Shown here: in pieces, positions 317 to 8,963 of the stretch
Numbering within the stretch: the stretch's first letter is position 1
How the letters are laid out: every line of letters starts with the position of its first letter
Source of the DNA: Weissella thailandensis
GTDB lineage: Bacteria > Bacillota > Bacilli > Lactobacillales > Lactobacillaceae
Length of the DNA: 64,000 nucleotides
NCBI RefSeq assembly: GCF_005405465.1
Contig: NZ_BJEC01000002.1
Coordinates: forward strand, 1 to 64,000
Direction of reading: 5' to 3'
Made by a program: the position numbers and the translations under genes
The notes under the pieces: generated by a model
What the model saw: only the letters and a program-made list of their open reading frames with translations
Databases searched by the model: none
Told to the model about the DNA's origin: nothing

Positions 317-1795
317 TTAGATATGCCGAGATAATGATTCATCACTAACATTTTGTGACATCGAATCATCCATATCTTGCAGCATCCGATGCATCTGCTG
401 CACCTCTTGCTTGCTTTGTTGCGTCATTTTTTTGGCAATTTTATTCATCTTACCCATCGGAGCAACGACTTTTTTATGAGCTGGTTGGTTCTTTTTTTTA
501 TCCTTGTTTTGTTGAATATCCTTGGATTCATTACCTTTTCTATCAACACCATTCGCCTGGCGAATTTTTTCAAAGTTACCATCCTTATTTTTTTGAAACA
601 AGCGATCAGTTTTATTTTTTATCTGCTGGTCATTGGTTGGTTCTTTAAAGTTTTCATTGAATTGTCGATAAATCCCGTTAGCTAATTCTTTACGCAACCG
701 ATTATCTTGCTTTTCTGACCACTTTAATTGGCCCTGATGCTGTTGACCATGTGTCTCTTGCATCATACCATCCATTTTTTGTGCGGTTGCTTGAAAGGAC
801 TGATAATCATCTTTCAATTCATGCGTTAGCATCTTATCAATTAATTGATTCATTTGCCGATTAGCTGTTGCCATCCGGCTAGAGTCGTCAGTTACTATAC
901 TATCAGTATTGCCAACTTTCCAACGTCCCCGTAAATCTTTTGGCAATACCTCAAAAATTTTCTGAAGGTCGGCCGCGTAATGGTGCGTTTCATCTAACTT
1001 AGATAACGTATCGTTTTTAATGCTACTACGATAATTACCCACTGCTTCGTAGACATCAGCGCGTTTAATTTTAGTAGCATCTGATTCTAACTCATAGCGA
1101 AATTTACTCTCTGCTTGTTTCTTGGCCTTAAAGTCAATTACCCCTTTGGGTTCACCGGACTTATGCAACATACTTGGTCGTGTTTCTTTAGATTCTTTAG
1201 CGTACCAAATGTGCATGTTTAAGTGGTCTGTATCTTGATGAACAGCACCAAACCAAATAACATCATCTGGACTTTCACCCAACGGCTGCGCCCCACCTTT
1301 ATCAAATAAATCTTGTACAATATGCTGTTCCGCACGCTTTAATCGATCTTGGTCTAATTGCTTAGTTTCTGGATCGTATAAGCCATTTTCACCTAACCAA
1401 TCACCACGCATTGAAAAAGCCATTTCATGTAAGATATTACCATTTTTCTGTGCGGTATTTAAACGATTTTCTAGACGATCCATCTGCTCATCAGTCATGT
1501 TCAATGTCTGCCCATCAAATAGTGGGTGTTCGTCACCCGTTGCCGAAAAGCGAGAACTGTATCCAAAGCTATCATTAGCTGTTATGATCATTTCCGAATC
1601 AGTAACATCCACCAGTGACTGATTATTTTCATCCATGACTTTAGAACTTTTCGCCGCATACGTTCGAACTAAATTACCAAATTGTTTACCTTCTTTATTT
1701 GCTTGTGATGCCGTTGAAAAGTGTGTGGGTAACAATACAGCACCGGTCTTTTTTTCACCGGTTGCAAAATTAGCAAAGCCCCCCGTTTTTGCCAT
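317..1795 (-). CDS. mobL: MobL/MobP-type relaxase
   Basis: This 492-residue protein is the likely plasmid mobilisation relaxase, which nicks oriT and stays bound to the 5' end of the transferred strand. The key motif HQDTDHLNMH (residues 186-195) supplies the metal-binding histidines H186, H191 and H195 typical of MobP/MobL enzymes. The expected catalytic Tyr lies nearer the N-terminus and Y46 or Y79 are candidates, but I cannot choose. The C-terminal third is Lys/Gln rich and looks like a disordered DNA-binding tail. It is the last gene of a five-gene minus-strand operon that starts at 3918, and begins 1 bp after the previous stop codon. A degraded copy of its 3' end lies at 12360-12590. Confidence 0.85.
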   Translation of the reverse strand: MAKTGGFANFATGEKKTGAVLLPTHFSTASQANKEGKQFGNLVRTYAAKSSKVMDENNQSLVDVTDSEMIITANDSFGYSSRFSATGDEHPLFDGQTLNMTDEQMDRLENRLNTAQKNGNILHEMAFSMRGDWLGENGLYDPETKQLDQDRLKRAEQHIVQDLFDKGGAQPLGESPDDVIWFGAVHQDTDHLNMHIWYAKESKETRPSMLHKSGEPKGVIDFKAKKQAESKFRYELESDATKIKRADVYEAVGNYRSSIKNDTLSKLDETHHYAADLQKIFEVLPKDLRGRWKVGNTDSIVTDDSSRMATANRQMNQLIDKMLTHELKDDYQSFQATAQKMDGMMQETHGQQHQGQLKWSEKQDNRLRKELANGIYRQFNENFKEPTNDQQIKNKTDRLFQKNKDGNFEKIRQANGVDRKGNESKDIQQNKDKKKNQPAHKKVVAPMGKMNKIAKKMTQQSKQEVQQMHRMLQDMDDSMSQNVSDESLSRHI

Positions 1796-1796
1796 C

Positions 1797-2135
1797 TTAT
1801 TTCACCCCCTGCTCCTTACAATACGTATCCAAAGCTTCTTGAATTTCTAATAAATTATCAAAGTCAATTTCTGGAAAACGTTTAATAGCACGTGCAATAT
1901 ATTTATGATCAGACTGCCGTAAAATACGTGAACAAGCACGATTACTTTGGTCAAATTGATTAATCAGTATGTGCGAAAATTGTGCCACCCAATAATACTT
2001 TTGTTGATACTTTTTATCTTTTTCTGATTCGATAATATCATCAACATCGTTAAAAGCCTTTTCTTCTGGATGCAACCAATCTTCTTCATGTAACTTTTCC
2101 AACGCTGCTTGTAAATCAAATGATGTTTTAGTCAT
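1797..2135 (-). CDS. Unknown protein of mobilisation operon (112 aa)
   Basis: I do not recognise this protein. It is soluble-looking, acidic, without signal peptide or membrane segment, and begins MTKTSFDLQAALEKLHEED. I chose the start at 2135 because GGAG lies 7 nt upstream. An earlier in-frame ATG at 2156 has no ribosome binding site. The start overlaps the stop of the upstream gene by 8 nt and the stop lies 1 bp from the relaxase start, so the three genes are translationally coupled. That tight packing suggests a relaxosome or plasmid-transfer accessory role, which is inference only. Confidence 0.6.
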   Translation of the reverse strand: MTKTSFDLQAALEKLHEEDWLHPEEKAFNDVDDIIESEKDKKYQQKYYWVAQFSHILINQFDQSNRACSRILRQSDHKYIARAIKRFPEIDFDNLLEIQEALDTYCKEQGVK

Positions 2136-2811
2136 GTTTAAACTCCAATCCTTCATTACTACGACGTTTTTGTTTATGAGCTAGATCCTGCTTACGACGT
2201 TCTTGATAAGCAGCAAAGTCTTTCGCATACTGACTAGAATCGTCTAACTCTGAGCGAATATCTGTTTGTATAACATCATCAAGCTGTCGAGACGGGCCGA
2301 ATGACGTAACATTTTCTAGATACTCCATCGCTGCTGTAAATGAGGCAATTTCCTTTATGTCCTTCATCTGATAATTAATTTCATTAAGCATCGGGTCGAC
2401 ATCGTTTAATTGATCCATTTTTTCTAGTAATTGAGCGTAAGACAACGTGTTATTTTTAGGATTAAGGATAACTTGATTAACAAAAAAGTTCATAGTAAAG
2501 CGATATAGGCTTGCTGATTTATCTGTATCAATCCCTGTTTCCGGATGCTGTTTTAACCAGCTAACTAATGTATCTCGATACCATAATTCTTGGCTGCTTA
2601 TTCTAATACCGACATGACCATTACGATTTCTCTCACTATCAATTTCATGATCCACCAACTCATTCACATTAATAATTCCATGTACTTCATCCGCTACTTT
2701 TGGGTCTAAATCTTCATCTGAATAATTTTTAAATTTCTTCTTTAAATACTTTAAACGATTCTGATTTTTACGCTTTAATTTTTGTCGAAATTCACTTAAT
2801 GTTTGCATCAT
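2128..2811 (-). CDS. Unknown protein of mobilisation operon (227 aa)
   Basis: The product is unrecognised. It starts with a very basic N-terminus (residues 8-30, rich in Lys and Arg), followed by acidic and polar mainly helical sequence, and ends in another basic stretch. There is no membrane segment. Its start codon overlaps the stop codon of the upstream nuclease gene in a TAATG arrangement, with GGAGAG just upstream, which indicates translational coupling. A DNA- or relaxase-binding accessory function would fit the charge pattern and the context but is not shown by any motif I can name. Confidence 0.6.
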   Translation of the reverse strand: MMQTLSEFRQKLKRKNQNRLKYLKKKFKNYSDEDLDPKVADEVHGIINVNELVDHEIDSERNRNGHVGIRISSQELWYRDTLVSWLKQHPETGIDTDKSASLYRFTMNFFVNQVILNPKNNTLSYAQLLEKMDQLNDVDPMLNEINYQMKDIKEIASFTAAMEYLENVTSFGPSRQLDDVIQTDIRSELDDSSQYAKDFAAYQERRKQDLAHKQKRRSNEGLEFKHD

Positions 2812-3596
2812 TAATTCTCTCCATTTTTCTGTAAGGCGGTTCCAGTATAATAATTAATCTGCCAACCTGGTTGACTGTTAAATACATACACGTGGAATTT
2901 GATACTATCATCACCAATTGACTGAGCTTGCATTTCTACACCACGTGGGACACGTTCCACATTTCGATATAACGGTGTTACTTGATAACGAACAAAATGT
3001 TTAGATGATTGTTTCAAATAATCAGCCACTGCGTTCTCGTAATCTTCCATTGACTGTTGTTGATCATATTGATGAGTCGCATTAAATGCCATCGTTCCAG
3101 TAACTAAATTGCGGGCATCGTTATTTAAACCAGATAGCTGATAACCAATTAAATGTGACCGATTATAAAGATAGTTTTCCTGCCTGGTCTGGTTAAATTT
3201 ATAAACATGATAGCCAGGCGTTTTAACTGTTAATCGTTCTCTTTTTTCAGTTGGCATTCGCGATTTATCTAACATGGCATTGGCTTGTTTTGGTCGACCT
3301 AACCAATCTCGTGGTGATAGGTCTAACCAACCACCTTTTTGTGTTTCTAATTCACTTTGTTTAAAGTCGGGTTGATTATTTGCAACTGGAATTGTTTGTT
3401 GGTTCGTGTAATCTTTTGCAGCTAAGTCATTAGATTGATTATCAATATTTTTAGCAACAGGTGCAGCACTAGATTCCCCAACTCGATTAAAGACTTTATC
3501 TAAAATCGCATCACGTTTTATAAAAATAAGCAGTGCCAAAACAATCACGAAAATGATACTAAATCTACGAAACCAACGATGATGAAAACTATACAT
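2811..3596 (-). CDS. Membrane-anchored EndA-like DNA/RNA non-specific endonuclease
   Basis: The 261-residue protein has a basic N-terminus, one hydrophobic anchor (residues about 11-27) with an outside C-terminal part, a variable linker to about residue 85, and then a beta-beta-alpha metal nuclease domain. The core reads YLYNRSHLIGYQLSG (from 143), matching the NRGH/DRGH motif of EndA and streptococcal DNases, with H148 as expected general base. It continues NLVTGTMAFN (163-172), where N172 would bind the metal. The predicted activity is cleavage of extracellular or incoming nucleic acid at the cell surface. It is second in the mobilisation operon, 10 bp after the RHH gene, which is an unusual place for a surface nuclease. 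Confidence 0.8.
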   Translation of the reverse strand: MYSFHHRWFRRFSIIFVIVLALLIFIKRDAILDKVFNRVGESSAAPVAKNIDNQSNDLAAKDYTNQQTIPVANNQPDFKQSELETQKGGWLDLSPRDWLGRPKQANAMLDKSRMPTEKRERLTVKTPGYHVYKFNQTRQENYLYNRSHLIGYQLSGLNNDARNLVTGTMAFNATHQYDQQQSMEDYENAVADYLKQSSKHFVRYQVTPLYRNVERVPRGVEMQAQSIGDDSIKFHVYVFNSQPGWQINYYTGTALQKNGEN

Positions 3597-3606
3597 TCTA
3601 ACCTCC

Positions 3607-3918
3607 CTATCTACCGTAAGAATCGTCGTACATATATTGAATCATACGATTAATCGAATCATTTAATGTCACTAAATCTTTTGAAATTGCATGTTGTGAT
3701 TCAGTCGTGACATGCGTTAATGTATTCAACTGTTTAGTAACATCCTGCAATGGTTCTAATAAAATCTCAGTAGCATTTGCTTGCTCTAAGTTCTGTACAA
3801 AGTTATCTATAATAATTTGTAAAAGTGCATTACGTGAAATCTTATTACGTGCAGCCTCTTCATCTAGAATTTTTAAAGTATGGTCTGATATGTTTCGAAG
3901 TACGAATTGATTTGCCAT
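3607..3918 (-). CDS. Ribbon-helix-helix DNA-binding protein, relaxosome accessory candidate
   Basis: The first gene of the mobilisation operon encodes 103 residues. The start MANQFVLRNISDHT has GGAGG 8 nt upstream, which is better than an upstream in-frame start. Residues 3-45 fit a ribbon-helix-helix fold: a short beta strand (QFVLRNI), a first helix around LKILDEEAARN, then ISRNALLQIIIDNFV. Such CopG/MobC-like proteins bind arrays of short direct repeats and assist relaxases, or act in plasmid partition. The C-terminal half looks like a helical oligomerisation region. The array of eight heptamers at 4081-4167, directly upstream, is the obvious binding target, though this is inference. Confidence 0.7.
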   Translation of the reverse strand: MANQFVLRNISDHTLKILDEEAARNKISRNALLQIIIDNFVQNLEQANATEILLEPLQDVTKQLNTLTHVTTESQHAISKDLVTLNDSINRMIQYMYDDSYGR

Positions 3919-4010
3919 TAAATAATCCTCCATCACTAAGTTCAATTTAAATTATTTAACCGAGGCTAAATAAAATTCAAAACCAATAAATAATAATTAA
4001 CAGGTTAAGG

Positions 4011-4056
4011 GGGAATGATACCACGCTGTGATATAACCCCGCTGTGCGGGCATTCC
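4011..4056. other. Candidate origin of transfer (oriT) inverted repeats
   Basis: Between the two divergent halves of the mobile region lies a nested repeat. The outer arms are GGAATG (4012-4017) and CATTCC (4051-4056), and an inner hairpin CCCGC-TGT-GCGGG occupies 4038-4050. CGCTGTG also occurs twice as a direct repeat (4024-4030 and 4040-4046). Position next to the relaxase operon and the RHH gene, plus the inverted repeat structure, are typical of MobP-family oriT sites. The nick site cannot be assigned by eye. Confidence 0.5.
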
Positions 4057-4080
4057 TTTTGATACTAAGAGATTTAAATT

Positions 4081-4172
4081 GTTTAACCTATGTTGAACCC
4101 CCTGTTGAACCTTTATTTAACGTCTTGTTTAACCTATGTTGAACCCCTTGTTTAACCTTTGTTTAACGTATT
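4081..4172. repeat. Two tandem 46-bp units carrying eight phased GTTKAAC heptamers
   Basis: Two 46-bp units (4081-4126 and 4127-4172) share an identical first 21 bp. Within them the heptamer GTTTAAC or GTTGAAC, once ATTTAAC, starts at 4081, 4092, 4104, 4115, 4127, 4138, 4150 and 4161. The spacing alternates strictly 11 and 12 bp, close to one helical turn. This is what an RHH protein binding cooperatively along one face of DNA would need. Function as operator, relaxosome site or centromere cannot be separated from sequence. Confidence 0.8.
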
Positions 4173-4187
4173 TTTTGGTTAAAAATA

Positions 4188-4223
4188 TTGCGGAATTGTC
4201 ATTTTTATTAGTCAATTCCGCAA
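4188..4223 (-). terminator. Intrinsic terminator of the leading-region operon
   Basis: Perfect 11-bp inverted repeat TTGCGGAATTG (4188-4198) with CAATTCCGCAA (4213-4223), followed on the minus strand by ATATTTTT. It lies just after the stop codon of the coiled-coil membrane protein gene. Confidence 0.75.
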
Positions 4224-4227
4224 GCTT

Positions 4228-5244
4228 TTATTCAAATAACTTGGCGACATTTAACTGTCCATTTTGTTGCTTAGTTTTTTGTTTTTCTAATTGTTGAATC
4301 TTATTTCTTTCGTCTGAAATATCTTCTTTGGCATTAGAAATATCTTTCCTAAAGTCTGTTATTTTCGACTCATAAGTTTCAATTGATTCGCTTGCTTGAT
4401 CTTGTTCATCATCCATCATATCTTTCATTTGTACACGGATTGATTTAATATTTTCTTCCTGTTCATCAATAGCTGTTTGCCACTTTTTAATTGCTGCTTT
4501 ATCTTTCTTAATATGCTGCTGTTGTTCTTGAATATTGTCACTCGTTTGTGCAATTACTAACTGCTTTTTACTCTTTACATTGAGCTTGTTATTCATGTGT
4601 AATTGATCATCATTATTAACAATCACCGTTGCTAATTGATCGCTCGATTGGGTCTTTTTAACTGAGCTATCACTCTCATTAGTTGCAATATTTATGTCCG
4701 CAGTATCAACTGTTTTATCCTCAAACGTGACCCGAACATCCTGGAAATTCGTCTTTAATTTTTCAAACTGAACGACCATGGTATTCGCTGACGTTGGGAT
4801 AATATGATACTCAGACTGACCTGATTGAATATAACGATCACCTGCAAATGAAAGCTTGTAGCGTTTCATGTTAATACCTGATAAAGTTGATTCATTGTTA
4901 TTACCAGTGAACTTAAAATGTAGTTCAAGTAACCCCGAATCTTCATTAAATCTTTTCTCTGTCAGCTGTACATTTGCCCCTTGATTGCCGAATGCCATTT
5001 TCTGATTAAGCTTAGTTGAAACGGTACCTGATGGCCGCGGCATGATCATTGAATAAGCAATGATCGCAACACCAATTCCAAGTAAACCAAGCAACCTAAT
5101 TGTCACTGATTTTCGATGTTGATCATACCGATTATATTTGTGGTTACCATGCCATACTCGCCAGTTATACCAAGTTCTACTCCACCATCCAGCCCTTTCT
5201 TTCAGGTGTGGCTTTTCGCTATACTTCACCTTGACATGTTGCAT
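4228..5244 (-). CDS. Single-pass membrane protein with C-terminal coiled coil, unknown function
   Basis: I do not recognise the family. The 338 residues comprise a basic, aromatic-rich N-terminus (1-48), one hydrophobic segment (about 49-66, LLGLLGIGVAIIAYSMI), a middle region of beta-type sequence (about 75-200), and a long charged heptad-like coiled coil (about 230-330). The arrangement suggests the bulk is outside the membrane. The gene is the last of the minus-strand operon that includes SSB, and starts 9 bp after SSB ends, with GGAGG in front. Possible roles are cell-surface exclusion or assisting DNA uptake after transfer. Both are guesses from context. Confidence 0.6.
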   Translation of the reverse strand: MQHVKVKYSEKPHLKERAGWWSRTWYNWRVWHGNHKYNRYDQHRKSVTIRLLGLLGIGVAIIAYSMIMPRPSGTVSTKLNQKMAFGNQGANVQLTEKRFNEDSGLLELHFKFTGNNNESTLSGINMKRYKLSFAGDRYIQSGQSEYHIIPTSANTMVVQFEKLKTNFQDVRVTFEDKTVDTADINIATNESDSSVKKTQSSDQLATVIVNNDDQLHMNNKLNVKSKKQLVIAQTSDNIQEQQQHIKKDKAAIKKWQTAIDEQEENIKSIRVQMKDMMDDEQDQASESIETYESKITDFRKDISNAKEDISDERNKIQQLEKQKTKQQNGQLNVAKLFE

Positions 5245-8015: not shown

Positions 8016-8540
8016 TTAACTAGCCACTAATTGACTCGGCCGTTGTCCGCGTTGTCTTAAATGCTTAGTTGCCCGTTTAAACAAATATTGTGGTGATTTT
8101 TGTTGTTTATTAGCGTGTGTTAGCGGTTTGCTATTGATTTCCTTAACCACCTGATCCACACGCTGTTGACTAACATCACTAAAGCGTGTGCCTTTGGGAA
8201 AATACCATTTGGCACGTAGATTACGATTGGTGCGCTCGTTAGTGCCACGTTCATACGGTGCGTAACTATTCGCAATATACAAATCACCTAAATACTGGCG
8301 AATATATTTGGTGACCAAACCATTCACAAATTCCCAGCCATTATCGTATGTGATTGATTTCACATAAGGGCCAAAACGGTCTTTAAATTGCATCACCACT
8401 TTTAAAATGTCGACTGCTCGTTTAGATTTCGCTTTTAAAGCCACTTGAAACCGTTTTTTTCGCTCGACGAACGTCACTAATAATGAATCATTAATTGGTC
8501 CTTCAACCCCGTCCATTTCCCAATGACCAAATACTTTATA
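8016..8540 (-). pseudogene. IS30-family transposase, C-terminal fragment
   Basis: The frame reads FGHWEMDGVEGPINDSLLVTF, then YDNGWEF, then SYAPYERGTNERTNRNLR and YFPKGT. These are the DDE catalytic blocks of IS30 transposases (D, D, and E in GTNERTN). The N-terminal DNA-binding half is missing: upstream of FGHWE the sequence switches directly to umuC. So it is a 3' fragment of about 170 codons, inactive by itself. No terminal inverted repeat could be made out downstream. Confidence 0.8.
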
Positions 8541-8845
8541 TCATTAACTTTCTTATTCATCGCAATATATCGATTCATCCGTGGCTGGACAATTAATAGC
8601 TGATCATCAACTGGTACATCACGTTGACGCATCACATTTTTAACACCCAGTTCTTTTTTTGCCCGTGGTGACGCGGCTAAAACCAACCCACCATTGGTAT
8701 TTTCCTGTTGACTCATCACGATTAACAACGAAGTCAGCGGGTTTAAGCCCCGATCAACACTTTCAACACTGGCATAAAAGCTTTTGGAATCAATAACCAT
8801 CACTTTTCGTCTTAGTTCATTGCTTGTCACTTGTTGTACATCCAT
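8535..8845 (-). pseudogene. umuC-like Y-family DNA polymerase, 5' fragment
   Basis: The frame starting at 8845 (GAGG upstream) gives the N-terminus of a UmuC/ImpB lesion-bypass polymerase: KVMVIDSKSFYASVESVDRG contains the catalytic Asp and the SFYASVE motif, followed by LIVMSQQENTNGGLVLAASPRAKKELGV. About 103 residues are umuC-like out of about 420-440 in the family. The frame then runs through the IS30 junction near 8535 in a different reading frame and stops at 8477. Plasmid-borne umuC genes are common in lactic acid bacteria, and this one is truncated and dead. Confidence 0.8.
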
Positions 8846-8963
8846 CACAATACCTCATTAGATAATTTATTATTTCCTAACAATGTTAGTTTAAACCTAA
8901 TATCATTTTCTGTAAATCAATTATTTATGCGTTATATCAAATAATCTTATTCATGATTAACAT

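Follow-up and report, generated by a model that had tools for sequence, protein, structure and literature searches.

A phased repeat array beside an oriT-like hairpin at a Weissella MobL operon, and a candidate protein reader distinct from the RHH protein of the operon's first gene

Introduction

Two described systems stand closest to the locus reported here: pLS20 with its proteins Aux1 and Aux2, and pWBG749 with SmpO. In pLS20, gel shifts localised Aux2 to a region containing TGTGCAT words, the suggested Aux2 sites (PMC5675868), and in the pWBG749 family the oriTs share largely conserved inverted repeats IR1 and IR3 and a diverged IR2, possibly folded into a branched hairpin (PMC8136818). 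PcfF of pCF10, an accessory factor of the ribbon-helix-helix (RHH) kind, binds oriT, bends it and brings in the relaxase (PMC6514445), and ParR is a protein that binds direct repeats, 11 bp in R1, whose sequence and spacing vary between families (PMC9426499).

The present locus lies in a 64,000-nucleotide stretch of Weissella thailandensis DNA (contig NZ_BJEC01000002.1, positions 1 to 64,000; hereafter the window). It is like pLS20 in having a MobL relaxase and the gene for a small, putatively RHH protein directly downstream of an oriT-like core (PMC5675868, PMC5313138). The likeness to the pWBG749 family consists of an identical core with largely conserved IR1 and IR3 and a diverged IR2, a possible branched hairpin, an RHH-type protein that there reads, and here would read, IR2 and one more site, and oriT mimics on plasmids without the genes (PMC8136818). 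Next to the core, the window carries an unbroken array of short phased repeats, and searches of openly licensed papers gave no description of such an array together with a reader.

The Locus in the Window

In the sense of the genes, which lie on the minus strand, a 338-aa gene is followed by an inverted repeat with a T-run, the array, a short spacer, the branched-hairpin core and the gene for the RHH protein, RHH1, and then by a nuclease-family gene, the 227-aa gene, the 119-aa gene and the MobL/MobP2 relaxase. The features are as follows.

317..1795, minus: MobL (MobP2) relaxase, 492 aa (PF18555 and NCBIfam MobP2)
1797..2156, minus: 119-aa operon protein, without a family match
2128..2811, minus: 227-aa protein, proposed array reader (profile search and swap comparison)
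2401..2628, minus: residues 62-137 of the 227-aa protein, its putative DNA-reading domain (alignment and AlphaFold2)
2811..3596, minus: DNA/RNA non-specific endonuclease family protein, 261 aa (PF13930, E 7.3e-23)
3607..3918, minus: RHH1, Aux1/SmpO-like, 103 aa, ATG at 3918-3916 (Pfam and hhalign)
3999..4056, minus: oriT-like core, an IR3/IR1/IR2 branched hairpin at 4012-4056 and then CCCCCTTAACCTGTT, conserved in relatives
4057..4068, minus: candidate RHH1 site beside IR1, TTAGTATCAAAA (suggested by its position and, by eye, its resemblance to the IR2 arm)
4081..4167, no strand: array of eight 7-bp sites in alternating steps of 11 and 12 (sequence read and pattern search)
4182..4229, no strand: inverted repeat at the end of the 338-aa gene, with a T-run after it in gene sense

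A sequence-only reading of the window had reported eight GTTKAAC-type heptamers in steps of 11 and 12 bp, built from two 46-bp units, and this is what the DNA contains. Sequence reading and pattern search place GTTTAAC at 4081, 4127, 4150 and 4161, GTTGAAC at 4092, 4104 and 4138, and ATTTAAC at 4115 (in gene sense GTTAAAC or GTTCAAC, with one GTTAAAT), in steps of 11, 12, 11, 12, 11, 12 and 11, and the two units, 4079-4124 and 4125-4170, are 91% identical. The heptamer by itself is not clearly enriched in the window (33 matches against 24 expected, with 7 of 100 shuffles reaching 33). The phased chain has a length of 8, whereas among 200 first-order Markov sequences the longest chain was 1 in 183 and 2 in the other 17, so the array and its phasing are real and far above chance. 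The array had also been placed between a candidate oriT and a mobilisation operon whose first gene encodes an RHH protein; it does lie near both, but it is the core at 3999-4056 that stands between array and operon. The inverted repeat at 4182-4229 is perhaps the terminator of the 338-aa gene; it is not in the output of the terminator scan, whose limit its 14-nt loop exceeds, and repeats like it are present, as judged by eye, in several relatives.

The operon is that of a MobL/MobP2 relaxase, whose product matches PF18555 with E 1.5e-19 (70.7 bits, above the cut-off of 28.5) and NCBIfam MobP2 with E 6.9e-82 (275.8 over a cut-off of 200). RHH1 gives E 6.4e-4 and 20.1 bits against the Pfam FitA-like_RHH profile, which is under the cut-off of 27, and aligns to pLS20 Aux1 by hhalign with a probability of 69% and E 4.4e-5, while its homologue at L093 (relatives are referred to by locus number) scores 20.8 bits against RHH_1, for a cut-off of 20.5. 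The RHH1 gene sits between the oriT-like core and the relaxase, as is the case for accessory factors of the Aux1/SmpO type. The endonuclease-family gene at 2811-3596 lies between RHH1 and the 227-aa gene, and in several, not all, relatives a gene of similar length and start has that place. Elsewhere in the window, at 8016-8848, what we take to be an IS30-like transposase fragment overlaps a truncated, presumably UmuC-like, ORF.

The oriT-Like Core

The core segment GGAATG-CCCGCACAGCGGG-ATATCACAGCGTGGTAT-CATTCC (spacers omitted) folds into a three-armed hairpin, with a z of -2.37 and 3 of 200 shuffles folding equally well. Of the 24 distinct cores, all but L089 and L094 were compared. In these 22 the pairing of the 18 positions of the hairpin holds in 88.8% of cells against 76.4 in shuffled sequences, and changes on both sides occur in 13 of the 18 pairs against 7.1 after shuffling, a count that none of 500 shuffles reaches; in IR2, all 7 pairs show them in these 22 distinct cores. 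The window core has the IR1-IR3 branched-hairpin layout of the pLS20 and pWBG749 oriTs, and we regard it as oriT-like and as a putative place of nicking by the relaxase. The candidate RHH1 site at 4057-4068 occupies the same place as ossA in pWBG749 and the Aux1 palindrome in pLS20.

Since the array lies upstream of the operon, it could be read as an operator at which an operon protein binds and represses its own promoter, and relaxosome proteins elsewhere do autoregulate, TraM (PMC8136818) and MobC of RA3 (PMC4175270) being examples. We hold this to be quite improbable: the sole promoter-like site (3980-3951, minus strand; 1 found against 2.3 in shuffles) is downstream of both array and core, and array and core occur on two elements, L042 and L043, that are without the operon. 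The roles of operator and of reader-bound site could nevertheless coexist.

The Array in Relatives

RHH1 has homologues in 8 of the 28 genomes of the genus, and 8 of 397 genomes of the family carry the core pattern. When plasmids were searched by BLAST, the whole 391-bp region returned nothing and the 66-bp core returned four Weissella plasmids. Clusters of three or more literal heptamers were present in none of the other loci covered by a search for them; the turnover of the word became visible only by inspecting the same place upstream of the core, where many relatives carry a phased array with a different word: GTTACC/GTAGCC in L003 and L007, GGGTGTC in L005, GGCTGTC in L006, GGGTACT in L016 and L042, GTATTAC in L014, GGTTWAA in L086-L092 and GGGTACAG in L093. 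Six loci from a pattern scan of viral contigs, which by eye look like chance matches, were set aside.

The rhythm of these arrays is shared. Mean autocorrelation over 18 representatives, chosen by us from 28 regions and compared with shuffles that preserved base composition only, peaks at lags 11, 12, 22, 23, 34 and 46, and no lag from 5 to 49 stands out except multiples of 11-12. The strongest peak is at 23 or 46 (11+12) in the window, L003, L005, L006 and L018, and the arrays of several other relatives step by 11. Of 29 regions chained without supervision, 18 have their last array site 40-41 bp from the core (eight of the 18 are closely related genus-g17 loci, and some are near-duplicates), and 2 have it at 52, one repeat further out. 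At least 6 of the 29 are without a convincing array (L015, both copies of L041, the plus-strand core of L043, L085 and L094); the array is weak in L040 and L083 and irregular in L013 and L020. In these counts duplicate loci of one place enter once, and L041, a near-perfect dimer record, enters twice.

Between relatives the array keeps its place and its rhythm, while its sequence changes. The sequence-only reading had named a relaxosome-type array next to oriT as one possibility, which the phasing conserved in many relatives supports, and had proposed that it be sought in close homologues; it is present in many of them, with conserved spacing and a word that differs per element. A tandem-repeat relic that no protein reads, with words turning over by simple slippage, would agree with the 46-bp duplication within the array and with the likeness of the repeats inside each element, but slippage leaves unexplained both the 11-12 bp phasing common to different words and the equal distance between array and core, and we find this account scarcely credible.

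The genome to which the window belongs carries the operon once more, in decayed form, on contig C6 at 98063-101553 (L008, L018 and L113), where the 227-aa gene is split, the relaxase has an internal stop and the array word differs (GGGTAGC/GGGTATT).

Elements without the Operon

Core and array are also found together apart from the operon. L042, the whole plasmid pWKW_2 of W. koreensis, has both, and tblastn over the whole plasmid matched none of the three queries, RHH1, the 227-aa protein and the relaxase. L043, a whole contig, likewise has core and array without the operon genes, its only two RHH1 matches, 13-15 residues long, both falling on translated cores. L098 is a Leuconostoc citreum plasmid of 28.9 kb, of which 12.6 kb were read; it has the core, the array (last site at -41, counted by eye) and a 57%-identical homologue of the 227-aa protein; within the 12.6 kb read there is no relaxase match and no RHH1 gene, and one 14-residue RHH1 match lies on the core. 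These partial sets resemble the staphylococcal oriT mimics (PMC8136818).

Two further observations concern the elements themselves. The 14.6-kb contig of L043 (G214:C6) has a ParA-like ORF, identified by eye, and two cores of the oriT-like kind, only one of which has an array (GTTAAAC in 11-bp steps). In the W. confusa plasmid L041 (NZ_CP120517.1) the genes repeat at an offset of about 7945, half of 15890 bp, and the record looks like a dimer; each half has a core and RHH1-like and 227-aa-like genes, and the stretch read contains no relaxase match.

A plasmid centromere, also suggested by the sequence-only reading, has gained no positive evidence, and array and core occur together without the operon as well. 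In its parC-like form, in which the 227-aa protein would act as the ParR-like adaptor, the idea can point to the family-specific direct repeats that ParR binds, of about 10-11 bp in some systems and 11 bp in R1 (PMC9426499). Here, however, many relatives have the array in a set register to an oriT-like core, the neighbouring operon is that of a relaxase, and no gene for a filament partner (ParM) was seen by Pfam among the ten neighbouring ORFs scanned; we judge a centromere very unlikely.

Co-Variation and Exchange of the Two Parts

That RHH1 coats the array to shape oriT was the proposal of the sequence-only reading, and RHH1 as array reader was our starting hypothesis. RHH1 is encoded next to the array and is similar to oriT-binding proteins (PMC5675868, PMC8136818), and the raw Mantel correlation of array with RHH1 is r 0.36 (p 0.005); the hypothesis was dropped on the Mantel tests and the swap profiles taken together. 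The tests covered 17 loci, 13 in the dereplicated set. Left out were L013/L049, with an irregular array; L015/L051, L085 and L094, with no clear array; L018, in which the 227-aa gene is broken; L040 and L041, with a distant 227-aa homologue only; L020, L042 and L043, with no 227-aa match; L004, where the array is cut by the contig end and there is no upstream sequence; and L097, where the 227-aa gene is cut. (At L094 the 227-aa gene has no start, and one word resembling that of L093 remains, by eye.) Array steps for the comparison of words were set by hand, mostly from the automatic chains, L083 departing from its automatic chain (23, 22).

The core follows the N-terminal domain of RHH1 closely, with r 0.83 and a partial r, with the 227-aa patch and the relaxase controlled, of 0.83 (p 0.001); the partial r of core with the patch is 0.02. 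For the array, the raw r is 0.57 with the patch and 0.52 with the relaxase, and the partial r with RHH1 is 0.08 (p 0.26), or 0.09 (p 0.31) in the 13 dereplicated loci. Array against patch, with RHH1 and relaxase controlled, gives a partial r of 0.26 (p 0.07) in the 17 loci and 0.14 (p 0.20) in the 13, and 0.12 (p 0.27) when set against the rest of the 227-aa protein, so that the global statistic for a link between array and patch is weak and not significant after control.

Near-identical elements that differ by local replacement are more telling. Identity profiles were computed for seven pairs in 60-bp bins, with positions counted from the core. When L091 or L092 is compared with L093, the array bins stand at 0.63-0.73, the core bin at 0.95-1.00 and the RHH1 bins at 0.87-1.00, and bins 1380, 1440 and 1500, in the 227-aa gene, fall to 0.63-0.70, lower than any other of the 60 bins between +60 and +3600; similarity is lost past about +3660, near or after the end of the relaxase. 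There are two separate divergent stretches: one is the array, and the other, at a distance of about 1.4 kb, covers 180 bp of the 227-aa gene. In L092 against L090, the array bin is at 0.98 and the 227-aa patch at 0.93-0.97, while bins -60 to +180 are at 0.57-0.68, the replaced stretch spanning the spacer, the core and the first third of RHH1, its N-terminus. An event resembling this one in kind separates the Weissella loci L003 and L007, where bins -60 to +180 are at 0.62-0.78, the patch at 0.92-0.98 and the array bin at 0.88; the array position-weight distance of this pair, 0.35, is not small because the words differ inside each array.

In the seven pairs profiled, core and RHH1 are thus cleanly exchanged together twice and array and 227-aa patch once, and there is no clean crossed case. 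L005 and L006 differ in array and patch, but their nuclease-gene stretches and relaxases differ equally, and the pair was not counted as clean. Between the window and L004, the 227-aa proteins are 87-100% identical ahead of the patch and fall to 13% per 15 residues within it, with a second, smaller dip (0.47) behind; the patch of L004 is similar to that of L003.

Because the hairpin arm and the N-terminus of RHH1 change together while the array stays (L092/L090, L003/L007), the protein of the first gene is probably the wrong array reader. Coating of the array by RHH1 is unlikely in view of the array bin that remains 98% identical when RHH1 N-terminus and core are replaced, of the converse comparison with L093, in which RHH1 and core are kept and the array is replaced, and of L098, where core, array and 227-aa homologue occur with no RHH1 gene in the 12.6 kb read. 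The 227-aa protein is the most likely reader, since array and patch change together in L091/L092 against L093 while RHH1 and hairpin stay, an assignment that rests on one clean event.

The 227-aa Protein

Aligned over 21 of 23 fragments (L089 and L091 omitted), the variable patch of the 227-aa protein reads x-I-x-I-[KR]-x-S with variations, and the helices after it hold an invariant Trp and a Phe-Phe. In the window, the putative domain begins with an extended H66 V67 G68 I69 R70, with helices after it. AlphaFold2 models the 76-aa fragment, residues 62-137, with pLDDT 86.5 and pTM 0.66, as an extended start and then helices at 12-27, 38-54 and 64-75 (fragment numbering); the model of the full-length protein is poor (pLDDT 65, pTM 0.28). 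In a ribbon-helix-helix monomer a strand is followed by two helices. We put forward an RHH fold, and with it the name RHH2, as a hypothesis, since the fold searches listed no RHH (neither Foldseek nor VIA gave an RHH chain for the 76-aa model) and no homology to pLS20 Aux2 was detected. The hhalign probabilities against Aux2 are 0.2 and 0.0, which is why the protein is compared with Aux2 and not filed as one.

The 227-aa protein has no supporting match in Pfam, NCBIfam, PDB profiles or Foldseek. Its own profile matches 19 of the 397 genomes of the family, in a few cases weakly or over part of its length, and finds no relative among viral contigs, and a plasmid search with the protein of L092 returned only the already-known Leuconostoc citreum plasmid. 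A Gly in the middle of the strand is shared by the window (HVGIR) and the genus-g17 proteins (MIGIK), the arrays of both being GTTWAA-like in spite of the large distance between the proteins (0.62-0.65 for the patch); with two lineages, the coincidence is no more than suggestive.

A Probable Two-Part oriT

We think it probable that the oriT has two parts, RHH1 reading the IR2 of the hairpin and the 227-aa protein reading the phased array. The array would form the outer half, and the inner half would be the branched hairpin (IR1/IR2/IR3) beside the CCCTTAACCTGTT segment. RHH1, as an Aux1/SmpO-like protein, would read IR2 and probably also the short site just upstream of IR1. The 227-aa protein would read the array through a small domain of a strand and two helices, several copies sitting side by side every 11-12 bp from a fixed point about 41 bp off the hairpin, and these copies may bend or coat the DNA and help the MobL relaxase to load. 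Each part would be exchangeable with its own reader, giving a two-part address that chooses which oriT is processed.

The comparison with described systems runs in both directions. The pLS20 oriT has, by eye, a similar hairpin layout, followed by CCCCTT, and direct-repeat words upstream. Counted from the corresponding GCAC of that layout, its TGTGCAT words stand at -118, -97 and -42, the last of them at nearly the place of the last word in the relatives here, -40/-41. It differs in having three exact words at irregular steps (21, 55) where the array here is unbroken, and in a mapped nic further downstream than the segment conserved here. In pWBG749 one reader, SmpO, is described for two sites, whereas here the second, array-based part appears to change independently together with a second protein. 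PcfF of pCF10 offers a model for the step of relaxase loading, yet it binds inverted repeats in oriT, and an array is absent from the excerpted description (PMC6514445). The likeness to parC/ParR is set off by the ParM partner, which was not seen here, and by the tie between the array and an oriT-like core.

Evenly poised, in our estimation, is the wider proposal that two lock-and-key cassettes, the hairpin arm with the RHH1 N-terminus and the array with the 227-aa patch, recombine separately, that their combination sets which elements and mimic plasmids can be co-mobilised, and that the Gly in the middle of the proposed reading strand belongs to a recognition code. In the staphylococcal case, the range of plasmids that a conjugative element can mobilise has been traced to one accessory protein and its oriT sites (PMC8136818). 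If a second exchangeable pair of array and reader exists, host elements and hitch-hiking plasmids could be matched by the combination of the two, in a way that could be predicted from sequence; if true, this would also give a role to a protein that is without a supporting family match and whose profile recurs in those 19 family genomes, and would add to the accessory systems of Gram-positive relaxosomes.
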